Shown: positions 12,932-34,621 of the stretch, one piece after another
How positions within the stretch are numbered: position 1 is the first letter of the stretch
Layout: each line of letters opens with the position of its first letter
The notes under the pieces: model-generated
Database searches by the model: none
What the model was told of the DNA's origin: nothing
Seen by the model: only the letters and a program-made list of their open reading frames with translations
From: Paenibacillus polymyxa
GTDB lineage: Bacteria; Bacillota; Bacilli; Paenibacillales; Paenibacillaceae
Reading direction: 5' to 3'
NCBI RefSeq assembly: GCF_015710975.1
Contig: NZ_CP049783.1
Span: forward strand, 5,280,001-5,344,000
Length of the DNA: 64,000 bases
Translations under genes and position numbers: made by a program

Positions 12932-13016
12932 CGTGCTCTCCTCCTCCCATGGAAGACAAACGGGGTACACCTCACTTCCCATTTCACTGCTAACCTCCAT
13001 ATCTATCGAATTTTAA

Positions 13017-13034
13017 TAGTTTGAATTCCAACTA
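13017..13034. promoter_or_regulatory. Palindromic operator for the MarR regulator
   Basis: TAGTTTGAATTCCAACTA is an 18-base palindrome with one mismatched pair. It starts next to the -10 hexamer and covers the expected transcription start, the usual position for MarR autorepression. Confidence 0.65.
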
Positions 13035-13063
13035 ATTTTAATCAGCCGCCTATTTGGTGTCAA
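13035..13063 (-). promoter_or_regulatory. Promoter of the marR-MFS operon
   Basis: Minus-strand TTGACA (13058-13063), a 17-base spacer, TAAAAT (13035-13040). Confidence 0.8.
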
Positions 13064-13144
13064 TACCTTCGTAAAATGATCGTCTACTAAATACAGTCAG
13101 TTTCAAAATAACGAATACATTCTATATATAAACTTATACATAGC

Positions 13145-13177
13145 AAAAAAACAGGCCCTGAAAGGAACCCGCCTTTT
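13145..13177 (-). terminator. Probable terminator of the GTPase/tubulin operon
   Basis: Just after the stop at 13194, an AGGC...GCCT imperfect hairpin precedes seven Ts on the minus strand. The stem is weak, but the U-run and position are right. Confidence 0.5.
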
Positions 13178-13193
13178 TACTGTCTATAGTTGC

Positions 13194-16100
13194 TTAGTCC
13201 GCAGTTTTCACTTGAACTAGCGGATAATCTTCCCCATCAACGGTAACCGTGCTAGCATCATTTAGCTCTAGCCGTTGCCAAATGGTCAACAACGTACGAT
13301 AAGGATACTTGTCGAGGTCATATTCCGTTATTCCTGTACCATTATCGGACGTGCTGGTCGTGGTTTTATCAGTTGCTATACCGCTACCCTCAGTTGATAT
13401 CTCTGAAGTCGCGCCTCCGTCTGTGTTGTCTGTCACTGCTCCAGTCTGATCAGAGGTTTTTCCGCTGGATGTACCGTTCAAATCTGTAGAACCACCACCT
13501 GTGGATTCTCTGTCTGCTGTCTTGCTTTTGGTGGTAGCTCCCTCAGTGTTAACGTCACCGGACGAACCATTGTTAGCTTTACTGGCTGCTTCCTTATCAT
13601 TCTGTTCAGCAAGCGTAAAATTTTCGTATGAGTGCTCCTGTTGATCCGCGCCGACAATGACGAGTTTTTTAGGCTTAAATTCTGCCTGCTCTGCCGATGT
13701 TTGAAACGCAAACAACAGCTTGACCATTTTCGTAGTGGACTTGGTGTTAGGTACATGTGTCACTATTGCAGTAGGCTCCTCTTTTACCGGCACTATAGGC
13801 TCTACTGGCTGTTGTACAGGCTTTGGAGCAGCGGCAGGCGTTGGTGTGTCCACAGATCCAATTACCCCGGTTGCTTTCAGGCCGCCTAATGTACCTGCAA
13901 TAATGATTAATACGATCCCAGAAATCACCCCGCCTTTGCGGAAACGACGAAGCGTTTTGACCAAAGGCGTATCTGTCTCACGCTTTGCTGCCAAATAGAA
14001 ATTTTTAAACACAGGCTTAGCAGATTCAAAATATTGACGCCAAAGCGTCTTTTTATGCAGTCCCTCTCGTCCTTCCTTTTGGAAGAATAAAAGCAACGCA
14101 CGCCGATAGGCTGGCTCAAAACCACCACGTGGAGTAGCAAACTCAGCGTGTTCCTCCGACCAGCGGATAAAGCGGTACATCGTATCGTTATCCTTCGCCC
14201 ATTTGCGGATCGAACTGACCAGGCGAGCAAAATCCAGTATTCCCTCGCCAGTACCATCAGAACGATAGAAAGCTGGCAACAGACGGGCAAAATGGCCTTC
14301 TGCAAGCTGCTGGGGCAGCCAACCATAAGCCCAATCTTGCACCTTTTCTACTTCGCTTGGCTCCAGACCGTCTAGCACCGATGGTTCCGGGTCCTCCGTG
14401 TTAAACCAATCATAAGCCGCAATCAATCGCACGGCTTGTCCCTTGAGAGGAGCAGGCAACTTTCCAACCCACTGTACCAAATCAGGCCGTGTGAAAAACG
14501 GAATCTGTACGACCTGATCAGGTGAAATTTCTTTTAGCTCTACTTCAGTGAGCAAATACCGATCCGCTGCTTCCTGTAAGCGTTCTGTCAATCCGGATTG
14601 CTCCAGCGGGGACAGTGTGCCTACGGCAGAACTACTGTCCCATTGACGCAAGCGTTGGTGAATGGCAGCCACAGCCTCTACCGGCTTTCTCTCAGCACGT
14701 AGCTTGCCCATCAATGCAGATTCGGCCAAAAGCTGAAAATCGACATTCGCCGACACTTCGATATACCGACTGCCCCATTCATGCACCACGGCCAACAGGC
14801 CCTTTACATCAGGCGTTCTTTTCATCTGACTGTCCATGTAGGGAATGAACAGCATTTTGGTGAGTGCCGGATTACCCAGTACTTTCGTAAAATAGACCTT
14901 GCCTAATGACGGATTCTCTTCAATCGTATGATAAATATATGTGACTGCTTCCGTATTCCTGGCAGTATAAGCATTGTTTAGCGAACGGATTAAATATTCT
15001 ACCAGCCGATTTTCGCTGCTACGTGCATGAACTTTATAATAGTCCTTGAAGCAATCGACCAGCCCTACATCCGGAATATGTCCATCCTTCACCCGATCAA
15101 ACTCATGATCAAAAAATGAAAGAAACAGATCATTCAGCCGTATTTTACGTGGTAGCGCATCAGATGGCGATAAATAATCAGTTAAGCTTCGTAACACAGT
15201 GATTCGCTGCTCGTTGTATAATGACCGCTCTCCCTGTTCAATTCTGTACAGCGTAATGAGCTCATGATAGCTGGAAGGCATTAGTTCACGTCCTGCCTCC
15301 ATGCCTGTCAGCATTTGCTCGGCAAATTTGAGAAAATCGTCCGCAACCCCGCCATTCAGTAGCGTACGGACAATCCAGTCAAAATAAGGCTGTTTCACCT
15401 GCTCTGCATCCACATTCAGTATTCGACTATTGTTAGAGAGGTCAAATACAAAGTCCTTTTCTACATTCCGATCACCGGGACGCAAGCTGAAAGGCTCAAC
15501 GAACATTAAGTGAATGCCTTTTCTGCTGTTCGGTTCCTGCGCATATGTAAGAAACCCGAGTCTGTTGCGAAATGCATAAGGCAGTGCCGCGTACAACACA
15601 CTCAGCAGCTGCTTGGCTGAGGATGCTACCGCTTCTGCTGGCACATTCAGCGCTACATATACCTTTTTGCGACCAGCGGCTGACATCATGACTGCGTACA
15701 AGAGCTGCTTGAACACTTCTTCGCTCAGCTGCAATTGAGCCAGCACTGCAGACGGGTCAACAGCGGGGAATACACTACCACCAGGTAGACGCTCTAATTC
15801 CGGTAATTCCGTTCCCTGCTCAATATCATAGGTATCGACAAACGAAGTGTTCAGCCACTGCTTATAATCAGATGGAGACTCACCATGTCCGGCCGGAATC
15901 ACATAGTTATGCGTAAAAAAAGCGCTCCGCAGCCCAGTGAAATCCGCTGCTTTATAAATACTGCGTCCGAGCACTACATCCCCGGACTCTGTCCGTACCA
16001 GATGTAAAGCTTCCGGATAGACACTCTCCTGCTTCTCACCACGCGCTGTCAAAGCCGCAGGCGCATCATACACACATAAAGGATGCAACACCTTTTTAAT

Positions 16101-16223
16101 AAATGAAGTATCCAGTCCTTTGGAATTAGCCACGGTATCAAAGCCTTCGGTAGAACGGAAAATACCACGCCGTTCCCGTGTGTACATCTGCTGCTGTATC
16201 ATACGAGAGGTAGAATAACTCAC
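13194..16223 (-). CDS. GAP1-like GTPase-associated membrane protein
   Basis: About 1009 aa when started at the GTG at 16223, which overlaps the TGA of the GTPase gene (GTGA) and follows GGGGAG by nine bases. The N-terminus (YTRERRGIFRSTEGFDTVA, later HPLCVYDAP) matches what I recall of the N2-type domain of GTPase-associated protein 1. A long alpha-helical middle part follows. One transmembrane segment (about residues 768-788, GIVLIIIAGTLGGLKATG) is preceded by a basic RRFRKGG, putting the large N-terminal part in the cytosol. Outside are a Pro-rich stalk, a Ser/Thr/Gly/Asp-rich low-complexity stretch of roughly 100 residues and a short conserved end. It is likely the partner or effector platform of the adjacent GTPase; the role is inferred. 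Confidence 0.72.
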   Translation of the reverse strand: MSYSTSRMIQQQMYTRERRGIFRSTEGFDTVANSKGLDTSFIKKVLHPLCVYDAPAALTARGEKQESVYPEALHLVRTESGDVVLGRSIYKAADFTGLRSAFFTHNYVIPAGHGESPSDYKQWLNTSFVDTYDIEQGTELPELERLPGGSVFPAVDPSAVLAQLQLSEEVFKQLLYAVMMSAAGRKKVYVALNVPAEAVASSAKQLLSVLYAALPYAFRNRLGFLTYAQEPNSRKGIHLMFVEPFSLRPGDRNVEKDFVFDLSNNSRILNVDAEQVKQPYFDWIVRTLLNGGVADDFLKFAEQMLTGMEAGRELMPSSYHELITLYRIEQGERSLYNEQRITVLRSLTDYLSPSDALPRKIRLNDLFLSFFDHEFDRVKDGHIPDVGLVDCFKDYYKVHARSSENRLVEYLIRSLNNAYTARNTEAVTYIYHTIEENPSLGKVYFTKVLGNPALTKMLFIPYMDSQMKRTPDVKGLLAVVHEWGSRYIEVSANVDFQLLAESALMGKLRAERKPVEAVAAIHQRLRQWDSSSAVGTLSPLEQSGLTERLQEAADRYLLTEVELKEISPDQVVQIPFFTRPDLVQWVGKLPAPLKGQAVRLIAAYDWFNTEDPEPSVLDGLEPSEVEKVQDWAYGWLPQQLAEGHFARLLPAFYRSDGTGEGILDFARLVSSIRKWAKDNDTMYRFIRWSEEHAEFATPRGGFEPAYRRALLLFFQKEGREGLHKKTLWRQYFESAKPVFKNFYLAAKRETDTPLVKTLRRFRKGGVISGIVLIIIAGTLGGLKATGVIGSVDTPTPAAAPKPVQQPVEPIVPVKEEPTAIVTHVPNTKSTTKMVKLLFAFQTSAEQAEFKPKKLVIVGADQQEHSYENFTLAEQNDKEAASKANNGSSGDVNTEGATTKSKTADRESTGGGSTDLNGTSSGKTSDQTGAVTDNTDGGATSEISTEGSGIATDKTTTSTSDNGTGITEYDLDKYPYRTLLTIWQRLELNDASTVTVDGEDYPLVQVKTAD

Positions 16224-17485
16224 TGTGATTCTCTCCCCTCGATGTACTTCAACTTGTATAGCAGCCAAATGAATGGCTCATCTACACGGATCGGACTAAC
16301 CAACCCTTGCAGCTTTTGCTCCACCGGATTGCTACCTAAAGCAGAAACCGCGAAATAGGCTGTATCTGTAAAATATACATCCATTGTGCCCTTGAACGGC
16401 TTATCCACCTTCTCGATAAAGCGCCGAACTTCGCCATCAATGTTGGCGAACTCATCCAAATCCATGTATTTGCGATGTTCCATTGGATTAAAAATATTGC
16501 TGTTCGTCTTGATATAAGTGCCTTCTTCATCTGCCAGCGCAGTAAGCATGTCGCTTTTGGTCAAGACCACAGCGGTTGGAATGTCCGTCTTGCCTTTTTC
16601 CTGGTATGCGATAAAGTCACCGAACATCGTAAGTACGACATCACGCGGCTCATCATATTGCGAGACCCATTCACCAGGCTTATCGCCAAGATTAATCTTA
16701 ATACGTTCCCGGATAGAACGGATTTGTAGTGGATCGACCATAAAAAGAATACCCGCAGAATTTTTAATATGCTGTCCATGCAGTCCCAGATAGTCCTGAT
16801 CGACCATCCCCTCACCAGCTACATCAAAAAATACCAAAGTCAGTGGTGGCTTTTCCTCATCCTTAAATACAAACTGGAAAATAAAAGGCTCCTGCATCTT
16901 TTCTTTTTGCGTCGATGTAAGCAGATCGCCACGTTCAAACAGTGGTTCCTCATACATCGTGCGGAACTTGCGGCTGATCTCTGCATTGAGCGGCATGCAA
17001 GCCGCGTCAAAATGGTCGGCCGTCACATGCTGCAGCGTGTGAATCAGGGAGGTCATATATACAGATTTCCCCGCCTGTGAAGCTCCAATAATCGAAATGA
17101 TATTACTCGGCACCTTGCCTGCGGTTACAGGCAGCTCGTTATGGCAGTGTGGGCACAGTCGGTGACGCGTCAGCTCACCGTAACGGTCCGTCAGACCTGT
17201 CAGCACATGATCTGAATACAAGCGATGCTCCTCAGGTACATCATAGGGATGAAGAATGGCCTCCATATCATGCACACTATCCAAGCCAAAACGCTCCCGA
17301 TATTTGTTCAACAGCTCATCTTCACCCAAAGCATAATCCTCATCATCTTCGCGGTGATGAGAAGCACGGAATACCACTTCCTCTGGTGAAAATTTACTAA
17401 AGCAATAAGGGCACACAATATCATAGAATAACGGCCGTGGCTCGGCCTGTGGCTTTCTTCTGAATAAATTGCTAAGAAAACTCAT
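16220..17485 (-). CDS. Zinc-ribbon P-loop GTPase of a conflict/signalling system
   Basis: 421-aa soluble protein. Two CxxC pairs (CPYC 25-28, CPHC 111-114) form a split zinc ribbon with an acidic insert between them. The GTPase core follows: Walker A GASQAGKS (134-141), a G3-like DVAGE (221-225) and a G4 TKSD (309-312, preceded by VVL). The combination resembles the double-GTPase families reported next to GAP1 proteins, although only one nucleotide site is evident here. It starts after GGAGG, 16 bases from the upstream gene, and its stop overlaps the GAP1-like gene. It probably acts as the nucleotide-driven switch of the system at the membrane. Confidence 0.8.
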   Translation of the reverse strand: MSFLSNLFRRKPQAEPRPLFYDIVCPYCFSKFSPEEVVFRASHHREDDEDYALGEDELLNKYRERFGLDSVHDMEAILHPYDVPEEHRLYSDHVLTGLTDRYGELTRHRLCPHCHNELPVTAGKVPSNIISIIGASQAGKSVYMTSLIHTLQHVTADHFDAACMPLNAEISRKFRTMYEEPLFERGDLLTSTQKEKMQEPFIFQFVFKDEEKPPLTLVFFDVAGEGMVDQDYLGLHGQHIKNSAGILFMVDPLQIRSIRERIKINLGDKPGEWVSQYDEPRDVVLTMFGDFIAYQEKGKTDIPTAVVLTKSDMLTALADEEGTYIKTNSNIFNPMEHRKYMDLDEFANIDGEVRRFIEKVDKPFKGTMDVYFTDTAYFAVSALGSNPVEQKLQGLVSPIRVDEPFIWLLYKLKYIEGRESQ

Positions 17486-17501
17486 CGGTTGTGGCCTCCT
17501 T

Positions 17502-18143
17502 TCATTCAGGGACTAATTCATATATCGTGCCATACTTCTGACCGTCCGTAAAAAACAGCCGCACATACTCATCTCCCCCCACTTCAATAGCGGGTAAAAC
17601 ATTCCGTCCTGCGGCAAAGGGTGCCGTGAACGCATACAAGGTTCCATCGTCCCGGTCTGCCGGATAGCCACCGCGCTTCTTCACGTAGCAAAGCGCCTCC
17701 TGCGGAACAGGAACTTCGGCTGTCACCTGAATCTGGACTGTTTTGCGGCTGCGAAACCAGCTTTTTTTATGGTGAACCGCATATTTGATTTTAGCCCTAC
17801 CCGTGCTCAACTCCAGTTGGTTGGCTCCGTCTTGCTGGCGGATTACAAAGGTTTCACCAGCCTCCCGAACAGCTGGATACACGGTATACCGCACACGTCC
17901 AATGCCTTCAATTCGGTCACGATAGCTGCCAGCGGCCTTATATTCCTCGCGTGTAAAAAGCTTCAGTTCAGAAGTCGGTGCTTCATTCTGTCTATTCGCA
18001 CCTGTATCAGCTGATTGTTTGGCAATATAGACCACGGCTGCGCCTTCAGGCCACTGCCAGCGTAACACAACCCGGTTGTCGTCAATTTTGTGGCTCAGCT
18101 CCGAAATCACAGGATCATCGGGCTGTGCATCCCTATACTGCAT
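17502..18143 (-). CDS. Beta-sandwich (FN3-like) protein of the GTPase/tubulin operon
   Basis: 213 aa, no signal peptide or membrane segment. The N-terminal about 100 residues look like a fibronectin-III-type sandwich (VVLRWQWPEGAAVVYIAKQ, later GRVRYTVYPAVREAGET); the rest is also strand-rich, with a basic KKSWFRSRK turn. I know of no enzyme motif in it. The ATG follows GGGAGG by nine bases. It is 18 bases after the multi-pass VWA gene and 16 before the GTPase, so the genes are co-expressed and it probably serves as an adaptor. Family not recognised with certainty. Confidence 0.65.
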   Translation of the reverse strand: MQYRDAQPDDPVISELSHKIDDNRVVLRWQWPEGAAVVYIAKQSADTGANRQNEAPTSELKLFTREEYKAAGSYRDRIEGIGRVRYTVYPAVREAGETFVIRQQDGANQLELSTGRAKIKYAVHHKKSWFRSRKTVQIQVTAEVPVPQEALCYVKKRGGYPADRDDGTLYAFTAPFAAGRNVLPAIEVGGDEYVRLFFTDGQKYGTIYELVPE

Positions 18144-18161
18144 AAGTTCCCGCCTCCCGTT

Positions 18162-19451
18162 CTAAAACCCACTGTTACGTCGATTGCGCGTCGGGCCTTC
18201 TGGTGTCCCTCTCCGGTGGCCTGACGGTCCCCCCTGGCTCCCACCACCAGAAGATCGGCGAGTATTTTCCGCAATCGGCAGAACAAGCGAAAAGACAGCA
18301 ATAAGGGCCGCCAGTACGAGCGCTGCCAGCAAACGAATCATCAAGTCACCTATAGGCGAGCCCGATAACCCTCTTTCCAAAATCAAGCCAGCGAGCAAGC
18401 CGGCTGGAACTCCACCAATTGCGAAATTCCTCGCGAGAAAACGGTTATCAAACATCAATCCAAGAGCCAACCCTAATAGAACCCCAATGATAACCAGAGC
18501 CGTTACGCGATAAATGGCAAAATACAGACTGTGGGCATACTCACCTGTCCGCTCCGTTACCAGCGTGCGATCACCAATTTTGTTATATATTTTACCGAAC
18601 GCCTGAGTAAGTCCTTGGGCATTAGCTACATTAGAATAAGTTCCGCCCGTTAGGCTGGCAATATTTTGCAACAAAGCTATACCTTCCGATTCTGCCAGTT
18701 TCAGGCCGATCGTATTAATCGGAATCTGGCGGGCAATGTAAGGAGCCAATGCGGTCTGAGTATCCAGTTCGCTAAAGCCGTCAGAGAGCATAATAACGAG
18801 TGAACCTTTTTCCGCATTGCCTTGGGTTTCAATCTCCTTGATCGTCTCGTCCAAAGCAAGCCCAATGTCTGTACCGGCTGACATTATAGTCTGCATACTA
18901 TCGATTTTGGAATAAACCGCTTGCTTCTCTGCGTCTGTGCCAACGGGAGTAAATGGCTGCACCAACTGCGCAGTGGATTCAAATGAAACAATGGCTACGC
19001 GCTTGTCACCATCCATTTGCCCAATTAGACTCTTGGCAGCCGTTAGGCGCTCATTATCGGGATCTGTTTGCTGCATACTCCCGGAATTATCAATCACAAG
19101 CACGAGGTCCTGTACACTCTTGCGCCCTTCAGGGTTAACCTGATACCCCAGTTCTAATAGCAGACCTGCCACGAACAACATGACGAGTGTAGCAGGTACT
19201 AGTAATTTCCAGGACAATCCGGAGTATCGTTGTCGCCATGAATGTCCATTTAACTGTGGCGAAATCAGTTCGCCGATAAGGCAGCCTAGACCAATGCACA
19301 GCGCCATGATGCCAAAATATAGCCCGATCACGATGATATGCGGCCAGTGGCCTATTAATTTGTGAAGAATAAGCTCTCCCAAGATGAAGCCTACTACAGC
19401 GCCCAGCAAGCCAAACACCAATAGGAGAACGTTAAATTTACGCTGCTTCAT
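18162..19451 (-). CDS. Multi-pass membrane VWA-domain protein
   Basis: 429-aa integral membrane protein. Three N-terminal transmembrane segments (about 7-27, 38-60, 84-103) precede a von Willebrand factor A domain (about 115-300) with a complete MIDAS: DNSGS (121-125), Thr in SAGTDIG and Asp in IMLSDG. Three more hydrophobic segments follow (about 327-395), then a Gly/Arg/Ser-rich tail (RRSSGGGSQGG). The VWA domain should bind a metal and a protein ligand. Position in the operon suggests a membrane receptor or scaffold for the tubulin-like and GTPase components. Ribosome binding site AAGGAAG is rather far (about 12 bases) from the ATG. Confidence 0.8.
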   Translation of the reverse strand: MKQRKFNVLLLVFGLLGAVVGFILGELILHKLIGHWPHIIVIGLYFGIMALCIGLGCLIGELISPQLNGHSWRQRYSGLSWKLLVPATLVMLFVAGLLLELGYQVNPEGRKSVQDLVLVIDNSGSMQQTDPDNERLTAAKSLIGQMDGDKRVAIVSFESTAQLVQPFTPVGTDAEKQAVYSKIDSMQTIMSAGTDIGLALDETIKEIETQGNAEKGSLVIMLSDGFSELDTQTALAPYIARQIPINTIGLKLAESEGIALLQNIASLTGGTYSNVANAQGLTQAFGKIYNKIGDRTLVTERTGEYAHSLYFAIYRVTALVIIGVLLGLALGLMFDNRFLARNFAIGGVPAGLLAGLILERGLSGSPIGDLMIRLLAALVLAALIAVFSLVLPIAENTRRSSGGGSQGGPSGHRRGTPEGPTRNRRNSGF

Positions 19452-19495
19452 AAGATTCGTTGCTTCCTTCCATCATTAAAGTAGGATAATTATGG

Positions 19496-21862
19496 CTACC
19501 GCAATTCCGGCAACCGGTCCACGTCGATTCCATGAAACACGAAACCATTCGCAGTATATGTCTCATAATACGTTTTGCCGTTGCGGTAAACCATCAGATC
19601 CTCCAGATGGAAGCCGCCCATCAAATGCAGTTTTTCCACCCCGCTGCTGCGACGCTCATGAACAAAACCCAGCTTGTAAATTCGCGAAGTAATGTCCACG
19701 TCCATCGCATAAGGAAGAAATTCGCCTTCGTAGTCACCAAAAAAATACTTTTCTTCATACCGATGCTCATGGGTATAGTCGAGCAAACGTACATTGATTC
19801 CGCCGTGCTCTTCTAACGTTTGATACAGTTTTTTAAACAGTTCATCCTTTGGAACGACCAGCCGATTTTCATATGCAGCAGCTACATTGGCACGACGTAA
19901 TAATTCTTCTTCGAATGTCTGATTAAATGGCTGTGAGCTGAGAATCAAGGTACGGCAGGTCTGTGTAACTCTATCCACCAGCGCGGATAAACCTCCATCC
20001 AGCAAGCCAGATACAGGTCCCATATGCCGGGTGTCAAAGAATATAGATTTTCCCCGCTTGCTTTCTAGCTCACGCATGACATCCTCCGTCACACGCTCAT
20101 AATACTCGAACAGGTTTTGGCCTGTGTAACTGTCAGCCTGTCGAATACTGTCCGTTGCAGTTTGATGTAATTCACGCTCCAGGTTGGCAAGCTGTACTGT
20201 AATATGCTTGGCCTGTGCATGCCATTTTTCCAATGCCAGTTCATAGCGGCGAAGTAGCTCCAAATCCACTTGAATCCGCAGCATGTGCATTTTATGCCCA
20301 TAGACTGTTTCAGTCAGGTAACGGATCAAGCTGCGCACATTATGTTTATCCATAAGTGGCAGCCGTTGAAAGGGCTGATCCTCTACTCGTCCGTTGTACA
20401 ACACATCCAGTTCGGCTGCACTAATCTGCAAATCATTGGACGTATCACGAATCAGTCCCCGAACAGCCGTAAGTACATTCCCTGTTTGATTTTCATCTGT
20501 CCAAGCTGTCAGCTCGAAAAAGCCGATTTGAGGATGTTCCTTAGCAGCTTCGTTTACGGCCATCTGCAAACGCATATCCGCCTGAAAATCTCCCAAGCGC
20601 TTATGTACGATCCGTTCACAGTTGTCGCGGAAAAAGGCTTCGCAGCCCTGACCAAACAAGGCTTCCTCTGCCTCACGCAATGTCATTCGTTTCAGCGAGC
20701 CGTAACTGGCTCCGCTGGTCATTAGTGCGCTCATGTCCATGATCGCCTCATTGTCAGGAACTAGATCATTTCGCGTGCGACTGCGCTCAGCAGCATCTAA
20801 ACCAAAATAATTCAGCTTATCGCGTATGTCCCATTCCTGCTCTGTTTTCATACGCTCTAACAGCTTGACATAAAAGTGGTACAACACCGTAAGCGCAATC
20901 GACTGATTAGGTCGGTTAACCCGGGAAAATCCGGCCGACACATAACCCTGCCGCCCGGATTCCGTCATGATGTTATTTTTAAACGATGTATTATTGTAGC
21001 CCCCATCCTTTGACCGATAGGAATCCCCTGCCTGATAACGGTTTTTAAGAAGCTGAATGTGGCAAATAATATCACAGCTCTCGCGCAAGCTATTCGGCAC
21101 CGTTACGCCTCGCTCGTTCTTGTCAGACAGCACATAGACAAGATCGAACAACGGAGATGGAGCATGAGATACCGGGATGGTCAATTTGTCCTCGGTCATA
21201 TGCAGCGGTGCTGTAAACGTATATGCTGGGCTCTGGATGTAATCCAACTCCCGCATAAAAGCAACGGATGTTGCACTCCTGTAGCCGAATTGGGCAGCCT
21301 GATCGCTTTCGCTCACCAACACATACAAATCCATTTGTACCGATTTAAAAGATTGCGCAAAAATATACTCTGCCAACAGCGTAATTTCAGGAATTAATAC
21401 GTTCATGGGATCATCCGCTGTTGTCAAGATCGACAAATGTACACGCTCGAACGAGGAATACAACCGTCCGTAATCAGCCAGATGTCCACTAGCACGGCGC
21501 AACGCGGTGTTAAGTTCAATTAACTTCGATTCATGGGTATAAAAAGCCTGGTGCAAGTCACGGCGTAGCGTTTGGTGGCTACTTTCTTCCGGTACTGCTA
21601 TCGTATGAACGATGGCATCCACCGAGCGGTCTACAGCCGCATGTTCTTCCTGTGAGCGAATCTGAATATAGGTTACCCCTGTGCTGTTATCCCACTTGGT
21701 CCGGTTGATATCTGCAATTGTGTTCATCACCGGGCTCATGCGATCGCCGATAAAAAGAAACACGGACGGGAAATGGATGCTGCTGCGTCCATCCCCGCTT
21801 CCGATTAATTGGTCCTCTGCGGCTGCATAGTCAGCCGCATAACGTAACAGCTGCTCTCTCAT
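19496..21862 (-). CDS. Diverged tubulin-superfamily paralogue, predicted nucleotide-binding-dead
   Basis: 788 aa, soluble. I find no standard family signature, but it can be aligned by eye to the preceding tubulin-like protein. A strand FPSVFLFIGDRMSP sits where the partner has NPILIIGLGGTG. A strand-loop VHLSILTTADDP sits where the partner has LMVFLLSGLSGGTGSGT. Helix and strand order continues through ELDY (partner KELDYW) and PLFDLVYVLSDKNERG (partner PPFNLCHLISATNTEG). The glycine-rich nucleotide loops are lost. The C-terminal 500 residues are helical, with a beta-rich end. It starts two bases after the tubulin stop. I infer a dead subunit pairing with the active tubulin; structural prediction would decide. 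Confidence 0.6.
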   Translation of the reverse strand: MREQLLRYAADYAAAEDQLIGSGDGRSSIHFPSVFLFIGDRMSPVMNTIADINRTKWDNSTGVTYIQIRSQEEHAAVDRSVDAIVHTIAVPEESSHQTLRRDLHQAFYTHESKLIELNTALRRASGHLADYGRLYSSFERVHLSILTTADDPMNVLIPEITLLAEYIFAQSFKSVQMDLYVLVSESDQAAQFGYRSATSVAFMRELDYIQSPAYTFTAPLHMTEDKLTIPVSHAPSPLFDLVYVLSDKNERGVTVPNSLRESCDIICHIQLLKNRYQAGDSYRSKDGGYNNTSFKNNIMTESGRQGYVSAGFSRVNRPNQSIALTVLYHFYVKLLERMKTEQEWDIRDKLNYFGLDAAERSRTRNDLVPDNEAIMDMSALMTSGASYGSLKRMTLREAEEALFGQGCEAFFRDNCERIVHKRLGDFQADMRLQMAVNEAAKEHPQIGFFELTAWTDENQTGNVLTAVRGLIRDTSNDLQISAAELDVLYNGRVEDQPFQRLPLMDKHNVRSLIRYLTETVYGHKMHMLRIQVDLELLRRYELALEKWHAQAKHITVQLANLERELHQTATDSIRQADSYTGQNLFEYYERVTEDVMRELESKRGKSIFFDTRHMGPVSGLLDGGLSALVDRVTQTCRTLILSSQPFNQTFEEELLRRANVAAAYENRLVVPKDELFKKLYQTLEEHGGINVRLLDYTHEHRYEEKYFFGDYEGEFLPYAMDVDITSRIYKLGFVHERRSSGVEKLHLMGGFHLEDLMVYRNGKTYYETYTANGFVFHGIDVDRLPELR

Positions 21863-21864
21863 AC

Positions 21865-24800
21865 TTACTTCAACTTTCTGCGGATGTCGTTTAATTTTCC
21901 AGCCATTTGAGCATAGAATGCATAAAGTTCCGCTCCATTAGCCAGCTCTACCTTTTCATATTCCAATTGATTGCGAGCCTCTGTATAAGTTGCAGCCAAT
22001 TCATCCAACTTCGCCAGCAGTGGTGTAATATCCTCAGATGAAGTCAATACAGCATCACGGCGATCCGCTTTGCGCATTAAAGCTGCAAATTTCTTTTCTT
22101 CCAAACCACGGAAGTTTGTAAACACTTCAAACTCCACATAATTGCGGCTCTTCATGACGTTGGCAAACGGCTCCCACGCTTCTTCCTCTTCATCACGATC
22201 ATAGACGTACAAAGCGCCTTTTTTCGTAATCGTGTCCGTGTAGAGCGCCTGAATGAACTGATCCAACCATTTTTCTTCATCCTGATATTTGCCCAGCAAA
22301 GCTTCCAGTTCAGCAGCTTTTGCTTCGATTTGTATATATTTCGCCAGCTCATCACGAACCACCTGCGTTAACTCTGGTGAACGGATCAGGTTTTCCTTCG
22401 CCATCTCTTCATTGATGCTGCCAAAGATGTCCTTGCTTCCGGCCTGTTCGAGCCCTTCAGCCAGTAGACGTTTCAGCTCAGACCATGCTCTTTTCACCTC
22501 GCCCAAATTCGGCTTGGATTCCTGCAATCGCATATCGTAGGCTACCAGTAGCGCATTCAGATCTAGCGCTTTTGAGCGAATTACAGTAAAGCGGCTGCTT
22601 GTATTTTGATCAACATCCTTCTCCCGAATTACGCCGAGTGACTTGGCACGGTCGAAGTCATTGCGAATGCGGGCGTTGTGGGCTTGCACACGGGAGTTGA
22701 CGTAAGTTTCTCCCCATGACTTTTCAGGAATCGGCGACGGCAGATTCGTCCAGTTGTTCTGACCTGTCTGCACCAGATGTCGGCCAATACCTTCGCGGTC
22801 AAGAATGGTTTTCTCATAGCTCTCTTCATACACTTTGAGCGGCGTATATACAAACAGAGGAACACCATTACGCGTATTGAGCCAGAAAATCCGGTTACGG
22901 ACTTCACTTTCTTTAATAGTAAAGTGCGATTTGCCAATTGCATTATTTTGATAATTGCGAACGCCCTTCAGGATATTAGGCGACTGTACAGGTACCGAAA
23001 CGAATCCCCATGACGGGAAGTACAAATTGCCAGAACTATTGCTCAAATGGAAGACAGGTACAGCCTCCTCATCCAGCTTGCTTGCAATGTAACGCTCCAC
23101 AAATTTTTCAATTGCTTCGTCCTGTCCGTATTTCATGACCAGGAAGTCTTCCATAGAACGGGTAATGAGATCACCGAATTTGTCAGTCAAGAAATTAGAA
23201 ATCGAGCTGATGATATCCATATCCTGATCTTTCACCCATTGATCTGAATTTTCCAGCAATTCTTGGGCAAAATCACGGATCAAATCGTCACCATTGCGAT
23301 TATCCAGCAGCTTGGTCACAACTTCCGAGATATCCGGTACACTTACCAGATTCCAATAGTACGTCTTGTTTCCTTTGTGATCGGATTGTTCCTCGCCGTT
23401 AATCAGCAGATCGCCGTTCTTCTCGAAAATGGCACTCAGTGCATTCAAAATTTCAGTAAATACATTATAAATGCGGTTATTTTCTTTATTTAGCAGGTCA
23501 TACAGGTCTTCATAGAATTCAATGAGCTGCTCTGTACGTTCCACATCAGCCCGCAGCCAATATTCATTAATTTTTGCTTCAATGTATGCATTTTTCTTCT
23601 TATCCTTGGATACAAACGCACTCTTGGCATCGCCCAGCTTCTCGTTCGCCTGCTCTCGCGCCCATTCAATGTCCGTAGGAATACGGTGCAGTGATTCACG
23701 CAACGTTTCAACATAGGAAAGCAGCATTTTCAGCAAGCTAAACCCTTTTTCAGTATATATCATGCGGGATACATAAAACGGCCCTTGCTCGGGATGTAGG
23801 AACATCCGGCGGATTTGGTCCGTAAACTGTCCTACAATTTCGCCTGGAAGCTGTTTCTTCGCTTTGATATATTCTTCGCGAGCACGCGTCAGGAACGTTT
23901 GCTCCAGCTCAGTGTCCATATTAACTACTTGCATCTTAACAACATTGTTATAACTTAGCCGTTCACTGTTTTCAAAGCCTGGAAGCGGCTCAGGTACACG
24001 GGACTCAAAGTTTTTGATCATGCTATCCAGATCCACGCCCAGCTTGCGGGCAAACTTCTCTACATCCTCCTGATTTGGCGCTTGCTCAAACATTTTGGAC
24101 ATTTTACCAAACATCCGGTAAGCCAGATATGTCGTCATTTCCTCCATGGGCAGCACTGCCGAAGAAGCTCCGATAATATTGTAATCGTAGTTTGCTGGAT
24201 ACGCCTTATTCATTTGCGCGATGTTGGTACGAATGTTGCTGATATAGTCATGAATGGCGAATTCTTCGCCTGACTGTTTTTCCTCACTCGCCATAAAGTT
24301 GGTGATGTTCTCGGCGGTGACATTCATGCAGTAATCATAGGCATTTTCCAACAGCTTGCCTTCCGTATTCGTAGCCGAAATAAGGTGACACAGATTAAAT
24401 GGCGGCAGCGGCGAGTTTACAGTCAAAATGTTACCGTACTGTTGCTTAAAGCGTTCGCCACGACTGTCCACATTCATCCAGTAGTCCAGCTCTTTCAATG
24501 CAGCATAGCCGTTCTTTTTAATATATTCACGCGTATGCTCGCTCAGGCTTTTATTCGCCAGATTAATATCCGGCGTGAACAGATAACCCAGTGTGTTAAC
24601 ACGGTCTACACCAGCGGAACCATAATCGCGCTCAATGATGCCTCGGACGATATATGAGATATCAAGGAAAGTACCACTCCCTGTACCGCCGGACAATCCA
24701 GACAGCAGGAATACCATAAGCTTCTTGTTGGTGCCTTCAGACAGGGTTTTGATTTTTTTGTCAATGCTTTGTACGACCTGATTGATTTTGGTGAACAATA

Positions 24801-25254
24801 ACAACCGTCCAGCCTGACGCACCCCTGCCGCCCCGTTCATACCGTCGGTAATGCTCAGCTCAGGAGACAGCCAGTCAGTGATATATGGCTCTAGAATACT
24901 GCGGTTTTGCAGCAATCCACCGATTTCCGCATTGGATAGCAGTACAAACTCATTGATGGGGTCCAAACCAATCCCTTTGTATTTTTTGTTACGGTCTTGT
25001 TCATTCGTTTCAAAAGCGAGAAATTCCACATTATCCGGCTTCTCGCTCTTTTTCTTGGAAATCGGGTCTGCAGGCAGCTTGAATCTGCGGTTTATTTGAT
25101 ATTTCAAGCGGAGAAGGGCGTCAATCCCCGTTCCCCCAAGTCCGATAATTAAAATAGGATTATCAATGGTATCTACTCTGATCTTATCGCTTACGATCCC
25201 TCCGCCGAGTGATACGTCTAATTGTTGGATATGCTCTCTAACTACTGGTTTCAT
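21865..25254 (-). CDS. Large tubulin/FtsZ-superfamily GTPase-like protein (Tubulin_2 type)
   Basis: 1129 aa, soluble. The N-terminal 400 residues form a tubulin-like nucleotide domain: GLGGTG (38-43) as the first glycine loop and the tubulin signature SGLSGGTGSGT (185-195), then ELDYW and PPFNLCHLISATN. The remaining 700 residues are long helices rich in charged residues, much larger than FtsZ or tubulin. ATG follows AGGAGG. It probably polymerises or acts as a GTP-dependent switch. It lies second in the operon, between a secreted VWA protein and a diverged tubulin paralogue, which suggests a membrane-associated nucleotide-driven assembly rather than cell division. Confidence 0.82.
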   Translation of the reverse strand: MKPVVREHIQQLDVSLGGGIVSDKIRVDTIDNPILIIGLGGTGIDALLRLKYQINRRFKLPADPISKKKSEKPDNVEFLAFETNEQDRNKKYKGIGLDPINEFVLLSNAEIGGLLQNRSILEPYITDWLSPELSITDGMNGAAGVRQAGRLLLFTKINQVVQSIDKKIKTLSEGTNKKLMVFLLSGLSGGTGSGTFLDISYIVRGIIERDYGSAGVDRVNTLGYLFTPDINLANKSLSEHTREYIKKNGYAALKELDYWMNVDSRGERFKQQYGNILTVNSPLPPFNLCHLISATNTEGKLLENAYDYCMNVTAENITNFMASEEKQSGEEFAIHDYISNIRTNIAQMNKAYPANYDYNIIGASSAVLPMEEMTTYLAYRMFGKMSKMFEQAPNQEDVEKFARKLGVDLDSMIKNFESRVPEPLPGFENSERLSYNNVVKMQVVNMDTELEQTFLTRAREEYIKAKKQLPGEIVGQFTDQIRRMFLHPEQGPFYVSRMIYTEKGFSLLKMLLSYVETLRESLHRIPTDIEWAREQANEKLGDAKSAFVSKDKKKNAYIEAKINEYWLRADVERTEQLIEFYEDLYDLLNKENNRIYNVFTEILNALSAIFEKNGDLLINGEEQSDHKGNKTYYWNLVSVPDISEVVTKLLDNRNGDDLIRDFAQELLENSDQWVKDQDMDIISSISNFLTDKFGDLITRSMEDFLVMKYGQDEAIEKFVERYIASKLDEEAVPVFHLSNSSGNLYFPSWGFVSVPVQSPNILKGVRNYQNNAIGKSHFTIKESEVRNRIFWLNTRNGVPLFVYTPLKVYEESYEKTILDREGIGRHLVQTGQNNWTNLPSPIPEKSWGETYVNSRVQAHNARIRNDFDRAKSLGVIREKDVDQNTSSRFTVIRSKALDLNALLVAYDMRLQESKPNLGEVKRAWSELKRLLAEGLEQAGSKDIFGSINEEMAKENLIRSPELTQVVRDELAKYIQIEAKAAELEALLGKYQDEEKWLDQFIQALYTDTITKKGALYVYDRDEEEEAWEPFANVMKSRNYVEFEVFTNFRGLEEKKFAALMRKADRRDAVLTSSEDITPLLAKLDELAATYTEARNQLEYEKVELANGAELYAFYAQMAGKLNDIRRKLK

Positions 25255-25278
25255 AGATATGACCTCCTAAGGGTTCGT

Positions 25279-27081
25279 TTAGCTGTTTACTGAAATAAAC
25301 TCCAGTAAAATGGTTTTGTCCACACTAGCCAGCGGGATCGTCAGACGATCACCGTTTTTCAGTTCAAGACCGTTGCCTGTGTCTACAGCACGCCCGGATT
25401 TTTCAATCGTAATCTCCGGAGTGCTACGCACCACAATCCGATCCTGATTCGCTGGCGTGAACACGACCTTATCGGTTCCGGCAAATTCCGGCGCCAGTTG
25501 CAGCAACTGGTGTAAATTGAATTTGCCCCGGAAGGTGTTCAGCTTCTTATACTGCGGGTATGTCTTTTCGCCGGTATTTTCATCCCGGATTTCCAGTACG
25601 ATCTGGCCGACAAAGCCACGATTAGCTTTTTTGACAGCCTTCCAGATGAAATATGCCGCTACCAGCAGAACGAGCAGTCCCACCCCTAAAAGAATGAGTG
25701 GCAGCAGCTTAGACTTCTCAGCAGGTGTCGTAGGCTGGGTTGTGCCAGTATTCGTACCACTCGCCGCCCCAGCTTTGGCGCTGATGGTTACAGGCTGCGT
25801 TTCACGGTAAAAGCTCTTCTCCTCTGCTCTGACGGTTAGTTCATAGTCATGCTCATCTGGAATCGTATAAGAGCCGGTAAAAGCATCCCCTGCGTTAGTT
25901 AGGGGCACTTCATTTGTTGTACCCGTATCAAGGTCTTTGACCTTCAGGACAGCATTCATATTCGCATACAATTCCTGATCCTGATACTGCTGGTTATTGC
26001 TCGTCAGATAGGAACGAATCTGTACCGTGTCACCTTTTTTGTATGATTTCGCAGGCGGCGCGTCCAGCTTCAATTCCAAATCATAGTTAAATACCAGATT
26101 AATATCAATCTTATCCTGCTGCACTCCCTTGACTTGAAGCTTCCAGTCGCCAGCCACAGGCTTGAGCAATTTAATCAACGAGTAGCTTTTGGACTTGGAC
26201 AGCAGTACATCACTCGAAGGAATCGGCTTCGTATTGCCCGACGGGTCTATTAATCTCGCGTCCACTGGTTTCGAGGACATAATTGAAATATTGGCTTCCA
26301 GCACGCTATCGTTTGGTACGGTTACCGTAACGTCCTGATAGTCGCCGTTGGCCGTAATGGACTGCAAAGGCACCACTTTCAATTTCAGATTGCTGGCGAA
26401 AATTTCACTCAAAATATTCGGCAGATCGTCCGCCGAGCTTGTAATAAAGGACTTGCCTCCCGTTTGCTGCGCGATGTCGGCGAGTTTATTCTTATTTAGC
26501 TTTCCATCTGCATTCAAACCGATGGTATAGATCGGCACACCGCTTTTTTTAGCCTCGGCTACAGCCTGCGCCATATCCTGAGTGGATTGGCTTTCAGTTC
26601 GACCTGTCGTCTTATTAAAATCGTTGTTACCATCAGCTAACATAACGATCATAGGCGCATGTCCGGCTGTTTTGCCATCCTGCAAAATACGGATCGCTTC
26701 CTTGACACCTACGGAGGTGTCAGTATACGCTCCCCGGTTCAGCCCGTCAATAAATGTCTTCAGTTCCTGCTTATCCGCTTCGGATGAAATATTAAGCAAG
26801 GCTTTCTCGCGTTGTACGACATCCGTATACGCTACAATCCCAACCTTGTCATTTTGCGTTGACAACATATCAATAAACATTTTCATGGCTTCATTGCCAA
26901 TCTTCCCAGGATCACTGGTGTTCATCGAATTACTTACATCGACTACCAACACCGCATCCACTTTAGAAGCTGAGGGTGAAGCGGCATTCGCCGTCTGTGG
27001 CTGCCAGGCCGAAATCGAAGTCATGATCATTGTACATATGATTCCGATGACCAAAAACCATTTTCTGTCTCTACTAAACAT
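25279..27081 (-). CDS. Exported, membrane-anchored VWA-domain protein
   Basis: 600 aa. Signal peptide (hydrophobic about 9-24, ending TANAAS). A VWA domain (about 40-225) has an intact MIDAS: DVSNS (48-52), Thr in GAYTDTS, Asp in VMLADGNND. Two beta-sandwich-like extracellular parts follow (about 230-455), then a Thr/Pro linker, one transmembrane helix (about 472-492, LLPLILLGVGLLVLLVAAYF) and a strand-rich cytosolic C-terminal domain of about 105 residues. The topology would let an outside ligand signal to the cytosolic tubulin and GTPase proteins encoded downstream. ATG follows AAAGGGG by eight bases. It is the first gene of the operon. Confidence 0.85.
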   Translation of the reverse strand: MFSRDRKWFLVIGIICTMIMTSISAWQPQTANAASPSASKVDAVLVVDVSNSMNTSDPGKIGNEAMKMFIDMLSTQNDKVGIVAYTDVVQREKALLNISSEADKQELKTFIDGLNRGAYTDTSVGVKEAIRILQDGKTAGHAPMIVMLADGNNDFNKTTGRTESQSTQDMAQAVAEAKKSGVPIYTIGLNADGKLNKNKLADIAQQTGGKSFITSSADDLPNILSEIFASNLKLKVVPLQSITANGDYQDVTVTVPNDSVLEANISIMSSKPVDARLIDPSGNTKPIPSSDVLLSKSKSYSLIKLLKPVAGDWKLQVKGVQQDKIDINLVFNYDLELKLDAPPAKSYKKGDTVQIRSYLTSNNQQYQDQELYANMNAVLKVKDLDTGTTNEVPLTNAGDAFTGSYTIPDEHDYELTVRAEEKSFYRETQPVTISAKAGAASGTNTGTTQPTTPAEKSKLLPLILLGVGLLVLLVAAYFIWKAVKKANRGFVGQIVLEIRDENTGEKTYPQYKKLNTFRGKFNLHQLLQLAPEFAGTDKVVFTPANQDRIVVRSTPEITIEKSGRAVDTGNGLELKNGDRLTIPLASVDKTILLEFISVNS

Positions 27082-27144
27082 CGCTTGTACCCCTTTGCCG
27101 ATTAATTCTCATTCTAAATTACAGTTGTACTCCACTACTATTAA

Positions 27145-27150
27145 ATTATA
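27145..27150 (-). promoter_or_regulatory. Possible -10 of the VWA-tubulin operon
   Basis: A perfect TATAAT on the minus strand 64 bases before the start codon, but with no recognisable -35 at 16-18 bases. Either an activator-dependent promoter or chance. Confidence 0.35.
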
Positions 27151-27230
27151 ATGAGTTTTACATGAGCGCTAGCTGAAAATCCTGCCCGAACGGCCTGAAT
27201 GCGACCAAAAAGCCTATTATATCGCGAGAT

Positions 27231-27260
27231 TTTACCAATATCCTGCAGTAATGATATAAT
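27231..27260 (+). promoter_or_regulatory. Candidate promoter of the divergent two-gene unit
   Basis: TTTACC (27231-27236), an 18-base spacer and TATAAT (27255-27260) on the plus strand, about 120 bases before the small membrane peptide gene. Confidence 0.45.
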
Positions 27261-27382
27261 TATACCCCAACAAGGGCAATCGGGCACCAGTCTTCTCCTT
27301 TATACGACAAAAATAACCCTAGCGAAACCCACTCATGTAAAACAGTAAAAATAAAAATCTAAGCAGAAAGAGGAAGTACACT

Positions 27383-27535
27383 ATGATCTCATACGGATGT
27401 TTGGCGATTATGTTTCTTTTTGTCGCCATTAAATCACTAATTTACTATATACATAAAAAACGCGCCCCGTCGATTGCACAAATCGACACCGAGCTTCTTG
27501 CGCTGCTGAATCGGAGAAGTGAGCACAATGAATAG
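27383..27535 (+). CDS. 50-aa single-pass membrane peptide
   Basis: Short frame with good translation signals: GAGGAAG six bases before the ATG. The product has a transmembrane segment at about residues 3-22 (YGCLAIMFLFVAIKSLIYYI), a basic HKKR directly after it, and a soluble tail ending AQIDTELLALLNRRSEHNE. Its stop overlaps the start of the zinc-ribbon gene by eight bases, a sign of translational coupling. It diverges from the VWA-tubulin operon and probably belongs to the same system. No family recognised. Confidence 0.6.
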   Translation: MISYGCLAIMFLFVAIKSLIYYIHKKRAPSIAQIDTELLALLNRRSEHNE

Positions 27536-28445
27536 TTCCAAGCAGGCTGTGCAATTTCGCCCCTTTACCCGCACAGAGCATGCCTTCCAAAAGCTGAGAG
27601 TCTGCAAGCGTTGCGGACAATTCACCGCCCTTTGGGAAGAGAAATGTACAGCATGTGGTCGGGATACGCTGGTTCCTGTAGAGCAATATGCTAAACTCAG
27701 AGCCAAACGTTATTTTCATAAAGACCTTGCTGTCGGCATTGCGTTGCTGGCTGCTTCTATCTTTTTCGCTCACTCGTCACAGCAAATGCTACTGTGCGGT
27801 ATCGTCGGTGCGTTTCTCCTCCTGCCCTTGGTCCTTCTACAGCACCGCATTGTTCTTTATGAACAGCGTAGGCAGCTTATACGCCTATTCAGAGGCCGTA
27901 TAGGACAGATCCAGGAAGGATTGGGCGTGAATCATAAGAACGCAGTAGCCCTGCGGCAGCTTAGTGAGCGTGTCTGCTATGAAATGCTACGCGAGATTGC
28001 CGTACTCATTCACAATGATCGGATAAGGCTCCAGCAGGTCGCTCTGCTGCAATCTTTTGTTCTCCGCAAAGATATGGAATTAACGCTCGATCCTCTTCTG
28101 ATCAAAAGCTTTGAACCCCTTATGGTCAGATACATTGGAGAGGTTGCCAGACTCAATCGTGAGCTGATTAAGGACCGTACATTCCGATATGTGGTTTTTT
28201 ATGAGCGCCGTATTTTGGAAATGGCCGGGGGCGAAGATATTCTCGTTCGCGTAGCCAGCGCAGCAGTCCGTAAAAAACGCTACGTAGTCACCCATGCCGC
28301 TTTCATCTCCAGATATGTTCGGAAGCTACCAAAGGAACGAATCCAACGTTTATATCATATCATTCAGGAGAATCCGTTAGAACCCTTTGGAGATTTGGCC
28401 GATGAAGTGAAGATCATGTACCTGATGGAGCAGTATAAAAGCTGA
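27528..28445 (+). CDS. Zinc-ribbon membrane protein, divergent partner of the tubulin/GTPase operon
   Basis: About 305 aa from the ATG at 27528 (a GTG at 27519 adds three residues). A zinc ribbon lies near the N-terminus (CKRCG, then CTACG, residues about 25-45), followed by two adjacent hydrophobic segments (about 65-102, a hairpin) and a helical, Arg/Lys-rich C-terminal 200 residues (RRQLIRLFRGRIG, FVLRKDMELTLDP, KKRYVVTH). The zinc ribbon echoes that of the GTPase on the other strand. It overlaps the 50-aa peptide gene and ends before a bidirectional terminator. Function unknown; the divergent position and shared style suggest a component or regulator of the system. Confidence 0.65.
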   Translation: MNSSKQAVQFRPFTRTEHAFQKLRVCKRCGQFTALWEEKCTACGRDTLVPVEQYAKLRAKRYFHKDLAVGIALLAASIFFAHSSQQMLLCGIVGAFLLLPLVLLQHRIVLYEQRRQLIRLFRGRIGQIQEGLGVNHKNAVALRQLSERVCYEMLREIAVLIHNDRIRLQQVALLQSFVLRKDMELTLDPLLIKSFEPLMVRYIGEVARLNRELIKDRTFRYVVFYERRILEMAGGEDILVRVASAAVRKKRYVVTHAAFISRYVRKLPKERIQRLYHIIQENPLEPFGDLADEVKIMYLMEQYKS

Positions 28446-28508
28446 GCTGCCATAATGCCCTTTTATATATGACGTCATTACCATGACAAACCACTGCAAT
28501 AAAGCAGC

Positions 28509-28551
28509 AAAAAACCGTCAGGATCGCCAATGTGCCTCCAGACGGTTTTTT
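28509..28551. terminator. Bidirectional terminator
   Basis: AAAAAACCGTC/GACGGTTTTTT, an 11-bp perfect stem between the convergent zinc-ribbon and esterase genes, with T-runs in both directions. Confidence 0.88.
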
Positions 28552-28582
28552 TATATGGATTATGATAACACACTTGAATCTT

Positions 28583-34321: not shown

Positions 34322-34621
34322 TTAATTTACTGCTCCATCCTGTACATGTTCTTTACAGAAGTTTTCAACTGCTTGCAGCTCATCCTCTTCAAGTTCAAGC
34401 TCGATGTAACGATCCGTTGCTTTTTCAAATAATTCATACTTCAGCAGTCCTGTCTTTCCTTCGTCTACTAAATAAAGAGCACGGATATATATTCCGTTTT
34501 CAGTGTATAGCTCGTCGTCTTCCTCTACCTCTATCTCAATGATAAATTCATAACGCTGTCCACTCAAAATACCAAAAGCATCTTTAATTTGATCTACTGT
34601 ATATGCTGTAAAATTCAACAT
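34322..34621 (-). CDS. Small acidic conserved protein (possibly DUF6509)
   Basis: 99 aa, strongly acidic (IEIEVEEDDELYTENG, ELELEEDELQAVENF), soluble. The pattern YTVDQIKD..GILSGQRYEF followed by DDELY resembles a small uncharacterised Firmicutes family that I recall as DUF6509. ATG follows GGAGGG by nine bases. It overlaps the end of the DinG-like helicase gene by seven bases, so the two are translationally coupled. Function unknown. Confidence 0.7.
   Translation of the reverse strand: MLNFTAYTVDQIKDAFGILSGQRYEFIIEIEVEEDDELYTENGIYIRALYLVDEGKTGLLKYELFEKATDRYIELELEEDELQAVENFCKEHVQDGAVN

Follow-up and report, generated by a model that had tools for sequence, protein, structure and literature searches.

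The systems built around GAP1-N2 proteins are reportedly the subject of a paper by Kaur, Burroughs, Iyer and Aravind (eLife 9:e52696, 2020). We have analyzed a locus of this kind in Paenibacillus polymyxa, inside a window of 64,000 nucleotides (the whole stretch of DNA studied, C1:5280001-5344000 of a host genome of 5.96 Mb in two contigs). The locus is made up of seven genes on the minus strand, vwaG, tubF, tubE, vwaD, fn3C, gtpB and gapA, and of two divergent genes on the plus strand, sm and H.

Two descriptions come close to it. In a paper that predicts conflict functions, the passages on the Firmicutes GAP1-N2 "tubulin theme" list two tubulins, two vWA proteins, a zinc-ribbon DO-GTPase, a fibronectin type III (FNIII) protein and a GAP1 protein with a polar extension, with a C-terminal coiled coil on the tubulins and a YtkA domain on the second vWA protein (Kaur et al., 2020, eLife; PMC7159879). 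The compared passages of Makarova and Koonin (2010; PMC2875224) deal with operons of FtsZ-like, vWA and GTPase genes, for which a membrane-associated complex was predicted and membrane remodelling proposed. In the part of PMC9871819 consulted, Tubulin_2 proteins are a divergent, separate group. Two predictions for Tubulin_2 and GAP1/DO-GTPase proteins, membrane remodelling and immune conflict, have been open since 2010 and 2020, as far as these passages go. Our literature search, with subscription journals and preprints outside its range, found no experimental studies of GAP1/DO-GTPase, GAP1-N2, FtsZl1 or Tubulin_2 systems.

The locus in the window agrees with the theme in having a DO-GTPase with an N-terminal zinc ribbon, its gene upstream of that of GAP1, a GAP1-N2 protein with a polar tail, FNIII repeats, two vWA proteins, one of them multi-spanning with an extracellular vWA domain (topology from hydropathy), and two tubulin-domain genes, tubF directly and tubE by way of its orthologues. 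It has in the same way the composition of the FtsZl1/Tubulin_2 operons, that is, an FtsZ-like protein, a vWA protein with signal peptide and intact metal-ion-dependent adhesion site (MIDAS), and a diverged P-loop GTPase. GAP1, present here, is absent from the compared passages of PMC2875224, and the OmpA proteins and kinases of those operons are not among the nine genes; H could be one of the uncharacterized families in its additional file 6. The seven-gene core is already known, since the text on the theme in PMC7159879 describes its parts, and loci of the window type may already be within published data sets. A preliminary description of this DNA had taken the pairing of two tubulins with GAP1 and a GTPase as undescribed; PMC7159879 describes this combination in Firmicutes, so its novelty is ruled out. 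What is newly added here is the sm-H pair, a shared promoter-like element and the loss of the GTP-binding motif in TubE, none of which stands in the text on the theme (section 29; figure 6B and the source data lay outside the comparison). Besides, the same paper, in the part compared, calls the linked components variable, whereas the set that we found is nearly constant. We read the locus, at roughly even odds, as the Firmicutes GAP1-N2/DO-GTPase tubulin system with two constant divergent genes, specifying a membrane-attached, GTP-driven cytoskeletal assembly that would remodel the envelope locally when a ligand is bound outside.

Gene order and distribution

The seven minus-strand genes extend from 27081 down to 13194, with intergenic gaps of 24, 2, 44, 18 and 16 bases and a four-base GTGA overlap between gtpB and gapA (16223-16220). 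The start of gapA is most likely the GTG at 16223 in this overlap, rather than an upstream TTG. A 301-base intergenic region (27082-27382) separates vwaG from sm. The preliminary description had placed nine genes with named domains at 13194-28445. All nine open reading frames are present, the Pfam search that it suggested matched Tubulin_2, VWA, DO-GTPase2, GAP1-N2 and GAP1-M in agreement with those names, and the motifs GGTGSGT, GASQAGKS and MIDAS that it cited are all found in the translations. Its account of the spacing was right about the GTGA overlap and wrong in giving gaps of 2-18 bases for all genes, since 24 and 44 also occur.

We searched 197 genomes of the family for GAP1-N2, Tubulin_2 and H. 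These were found in 95, 98 and 96 genomes, respectively, and the same 95 hold all three, so that H accompanies GAP1-N2 in 95 of 95; the extra genomes have one weak partial H (G308) and Tubulin_2 matches in G325 and G470, both weak, and in G382 (6.0e-66). GAP1-N2 was a single-copy gene in each of the 95. Within the genus of the window 22 out of 23 genomes were positive, G456 lacking the system. From 97 other Tubulin_2-positive genomes we fetched 40 family loci, chosen for spread, and 39 of them showed this gene set in unchanged order. Among these 39, TubF, TubE, both VWA proteins, FN3C and GtpB were seen in all, H in 38, and GAP1 and sm (the latter by BLAST) in 36 each; GAP1 is cut by the end of the stretch in three loci and H went unread in one, and the genome-wide search detects GAP1 or H in the genomes concerned. 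In some loci extra DNA, at most 1.85 kb long, lies between the genes, and one of the 39 (L110) has vwaD broken into two frames.

A set of named loci, the best 80 of 309 relatives found by TubF, with several loci cut by contig ends, includes H in 79 loci and GAP1 in 74; sm was detected with BLAST in 71 and with a profile in at least 79. Judged by TubF identity, the nearest named species is Paenibacillus ottowii (99%), followed at 98% by P. maysiensis, Paenibacillus sp. BJ-4 and P. brasilensis. When 200 genomes of the class were searched with the H profile, 26 were positive, of which 16 belong to the family of the window and 10 to two other families. The ten loci from these other families, which were selected by their H gene, hold all nine genes, sm included, in the same order (10/10). 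Of 299 genomes sampled from the phylum, eight had GAP1-N2 and eleven Tubulin_2, both occurring together only in five genomes of the window's family. An order kept in 39 of 40 family loci and in 10 of 10 loci elsewhere indicates that the cluster is not due to chance, and with co-occurrence in 95 of 95 genomes a fortuitous neighbourhood of unrelated genes, for which nothing spoke, has a practically negligible probability. The survey thus bears out the earlier claim of one conserved locus.

A few loci were peculiar. In L143 (genome G382), the fortieth of the fetched family loci, a lone Tubulin_2 protein was 27% identical to TubF; the other eight genes were absent from the 20 kb fetched, and GAP1-N2 from the genome. 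L123 (G355) has a pair of vwaG-like genes (identities 42% and 61%), one of which lies in the stretch of about 2.2 kb that separates the other from sm. In L277 both H and vwaD are split into two frames; its genome (G651) is listed at 8% contamination, so that sequencing error and decay look the same here.

Predicted parts and the shared intergenic region

The gene transcribed first, vwaG (25279..27081, minus strand; Pfam VWA 1.3e-16), codes for a protein that by hydropathy has a signal sequence, an extracellular VWA domain with MIDAS, a C-terminal transmembrane segment (residues 462-480) and a cytosolic tail of about 120 residues. The DxSxSM pattern is kept in 40 of 40 orthologues. A YtkA domain like that described in PMC7159879 was not detected in VwaG with Pfam, which gave weak MG2 and hemicentin-like beta matches. 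The fourth gene, vwaD (18162..19451, minus; Pfam VWA 1.6e-17), codes for a multi-spanning protein with five strong hydrophobic segments, three N-terminal and two C-terminal of the VWA domain, which is predicted from hydropathy to be extracellular.

The product of the second gene, tubF (21865..25254, minus), joins a Tubulin_2/FtsZ-like GTPase domain (Tubulin_2 5.5e-76, residues 35-385) to an extension of some 740 residues, and its GGxGSG motif is kept in 40 of 40 orthologues. TubF shares with FtsZ the superfamily and the glycine-rich loop, and differs from it in these extra residues and in giving no FtsZ_C match; a separate ftsZ is found in the same genome. The third gene, tubE (19496..21862, minus), is much more diverged. 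Its Tubulin_2 match (7.3e-4) is below the cut-off in the window, eight operon orthologues of other genomes reach the cut-off, and 14 of 40 orthologues match at E<=0.01 (best 4.7e-6). The profile match between TubE and TubF was weak (E 0.0033, probability 9.7%), and the glycine-rich GTP-binding motif GGxGSG is missing from 39 of 40 TubE copies. Judging from these sequences, TubE is probably a diverged tubulin-like protein that has no bound nucleotide.

The zinc-ribbon DO-GTPase2 protein is coded by the sixth gene, gtpB (16220..17485, minus; 34 bits over a cut-off of 27). Its P-loop is found in 39 of 40 orthologues, DxAGE in 40, [TN]KxD in 34 and the CxxC pairs in 40, a count that does not tell one zinc ribbon from two. 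The last gene, gapA (13194..16223, minus), matches GAP1-N2 with 161 bits and GAP1-M with 97 (cut-offs 24), and C-terminal of a marginal transmembrane segment (761-779) its product has a polar tail of about 230 residues, rich in Ser, Thr, Gly and Asp. Between vwaD and gtpB, the fifth gene fn3C (17502..18143, minus) codes for a tandem fibronectin type III protein; its sequence has no Pfam match, and its predicted fold matches FN3 pairs. The picture in the preliminary description, VWA domains outside (here by hydropathy) and in the cytosol two machines driven by nucleotides, which belong to the GAP1/DO-GTPase class, finds support in these parts.

On the other side of the intergenic region, sm (27383..27535, plus strand) is preceded by AGAGGAAG and codes for a membrane protein of 50 residues with a single transmembrane segment. 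H (27528..28445, plus) overlaps the 3' end of sm by eight bases, and from the ATG at 27528 gives 305 residues with a zinc ribbon, a transmembrane hairpin and a helical cytosolic domain; an alternative GTG start at 27519 would give 308. The structure predicted for H is of high confidence (mean predicted local distance difference test score 93.3) and this model has no match in the PDB at E<=0.001. With the distribution given above, sm and H are constant partners of the seven-gene operon and look unreported; as constant parts they would be needed by anyone reconstituting the system.

A further divergent gene, K (L140:368-2185, minus), adjoins H in at least 18 of the 39 fetched system loci, some of whose stretches end soon after H, and is found in 35 of the 80 named loci, which have longer flanks. 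Its product has about 580-605 residues, an N-terminal transmembrane segment and, by eye, helical repeats followed by beta structure, with no match to Pfam at E<=0.01. K is probably an accessory, outside-facing part. As a tenth gene in the genome of the window it was not found with one query, the L140 protein.

In the region between vwaG and sm two promoter-like sites face opposite ways. The one toward vwaG (27251..27279, minus) reads TTGCCC, 17 bases, TATCAT, and the one toward sm-H (27231..27260, plus) has an extended -10, TGnTATAAT; the two -10 elements share two bases (27255-27256). The pattern TTGN3-N17-TATCAT was present in 22 of 36 intergenic regions, versus a shuffled mean of 0.07, and the opposite extended -10 in 17 of 36 versus 0.58 (related sequences, counted over 36 of 37 regions after excluding that of L123, longer than 1000 bases). 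For the named loci, a set that shares members with the first, the counts were 56 and 42 out of 79, and the spacers varied. A promoter scan over 12950-28650 found 25 sites versus 23.3 expected; with the region as a whole near expectation, it is conservation that argues for this site. Upstream motifs of SigW, SigB, SigH, SigE and SigF/G did not clearly exceed shuffled levels. The sequences suggest that in Paenibacillus a conserved promoter-like element with overlapping sites is common to both arms. Bidirectional, pseudo-symmetrical promoters on which polymerases are mutually exclusive are described in the consulted part of PMC12825309. Most of the vwaG-sm regions of L268-L276, loci of the other families that lack this motif, share a conserved stretch of their own which by eye resembles TAGTGGTAATnnTGTCATA.

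Selection, descent and function

The nine genes are under purifying selection. In the comparisons with P. ottowii, P. maysiensis and P. brasilensis, the ratio of non-synonymous to synonymous substitution rates (dN/dS) was 0.013-0.016 for TubF, 0.009-0.023 for GtpB, 0.04-0.08 for both VWA proteins and TubE, 0.087-0.105 for GAP1, 0.103-0.130 for FN3C, 0.061-0.139 for H and 0.058-0.191 for sm. The overall range (0.009-0.19) overlaps that of the flanking genes (0.017-0.147), namely 0.017-0.042 for cystathionine and cysteine synthase-like genes, 0.085-0.126 for MarR and 0.123-0.147 for an esterase. In a fourth comparison, with P. massiliensis (L149), the synonymous rate was saturated for most genes; vwaG gave 0.085 and sm 0.262, values excluded from the quoted ranges. 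The median pairwise identities over 30 genomes (29 for GAP1, 28 for sm) were 80% for TubF, 81% for GtpB, 58% for VwaG, 51% for FN3C, 50% for VwaD and 48% for TubE. The values of TubF and GtpB fall between those of FtsZ (88%) and partial FtsA (71%); partial SpoIIGA gave 51% (22 genomes).

Neither the 72,556 plasmid records nor the 50,697 phage records contained a relative of TubF at E<=1e-5. The four nearest relatives have the same neighbours beside the system, genes for MarR, an esterase and the cysteine pathway. Distances of the operon and of marker genes correlated with a Mantel r of 0.41-0.49 (0.32-0.43 without G480), and none of 999 permutations reached the value of the full set. In the operon tree, built from the window and the 39 fetched loci, the genera g3, g220, g221 and g229 are each intact, with g220 nested in g219, and g228 is split, as it likewise is in the marker tree. 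The latter (ftsZ, ftsA and spoIIGA, 922 columns, 30 genomes) supports g1 with 0.96, g3 with 0.79 and g219 with 1.0, and groups g2 without a support value. Given this Mantel r and the splitting of g1 and g2 in the operon tree, purely vertical descent is unsupported.

A resident envelope or cytoskeletal machine fits these data better than a defence system in an arms race, because the gene set is near-fixed, selection is purifying and TubF is not seen in plasmids or phages. In the assembly that we favour, the outside VWA domains of VwaG and VwaD would bind a wall ligand in a manner dependent on a divalent metal, and the signal would be relayed by the transmembrane segment and tail of VwaG and by the C-terminal transmembrane segment of GAP1 to a GAP1/DO-GTPase switch. 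TubF would then polymerize with GTP bound, and TubE, whose motif is lost, may act as a non-hydrolysing partner or cap. The membrane proteins H and Sm, with cytosolic zinc-ribbon or helical parts, and the FN3 protein could scaffold or tether the assembly, and the single overlapping promoter, conserved in Paenibacillus and of putative activity, would drive both arms jointly or alternately. A more pointed version, which we put forward only tentatively, is that of a near-fixed, envelope-spanning, nine-gene outside-to-cytoskeleton signalling device of Bacilli that is not immune, in which a tubulin competent for catalysis assembles together with an obligate pseudo-tubulin, controlled by a VWA-driven GTPase/GAP1 switch, and the unreported H and Sm are expressed from this one overlapping promoter.

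Several observations weigh against the envelope assembly. The system is limited to 95 of the 197 family genomes, by which it is dispensable and not core. The assignment of TubE as a tubulin depends on weak profile matches, and the transmembrane segment of GapA is marginal (hydropathy 1.66 for a threshold of 1.6). Neither promoter element appears in the loci of the other families (0/10). The lowest median identities are those of H (40%), sm (37%) and GAP1 (35%), indicating fast evolution, and gene-wide dN/dS may overlook a few selected sites. Moreover, the operon tree splits g1 and g2, both intact in the marker tree, which may reflect an unreliable tree backbone or a degree of gene transfer inside the family.

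The preliminary description had named GAP1 and double-GTPase families as predicted parts of NTP-dependent conflict systems. As set out by Kaur et al. (2020), sensing of an invader would set off the GTPase/GAP1 switch, and the tubulins would multimerize as the effector, with the infected cell stopped or killed. This is sound insofar as the locus belongs to the GAP1-N2 theme for which the compared text of PMC7159879 predicts such a role. The role itself agrees poorly with the near-fixed gene set, set against the highly variable effectors stressed in those passages, with the single GAP1-N2 copy, with a gene-wide dN/dS that shows no diversifying selection, and with the conserved flanks and the lack of TubF in mobile records. 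PADLOC-DB 2.0.0 (2023) matched none of eight system proteins at E<=0.1 (sm was outside the scan), and no toxin or recombinase family was found among nine flanking genes scanned, a negative qualified by a 655-residue DEAD/Helicase_C_2 protein (34615-36582, minus) with a type III restriction-like match below threshold. None of these points is decisive. Patchy presence, disagreement of the trees on two genera and fast-evolving GAP1, H and sm, as a sensor under conflict could behave, would also fit an immune-like role, and on this account we keep it as a possible, if rather unlikely, explanation. The evolutionary data do weigh against the simplest arms-race version.

An auxiliary tubulin ring or patch for sporulation, branching or swarming, with VWA proteins reading the state of the wall, is less probable again. 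The envelope topology derived from hydropathy would suit it, as would the published statistical link between GAP1-N2 and a multicellular way of life (601 of 904 organisms, Table 1 of PMC7159879). Against it, sporulation sigma motifs upstream did not clearly exceed their shuffled frequency, and half of the family genomes do without the system. As the complete set is nearly constant in Paenibacillus, its function is directly testable by deletion.

Neighbouring genes in the window

Beyond H lies a gene on the minus strand (28583-31339) for a protein of 918 residues with a central esterase/hydrolase region, polyhydroxybutyrate-depolymerase-like. It adjoins the system in only 4 of the 80 named loci, those of the four nearest relatives. 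On the side of gapA, a minus-strand gene at 5114-8584 codes for a surface protein of 1156 residues with SLH domains and bacterial Ig/cadherin-like repeats.

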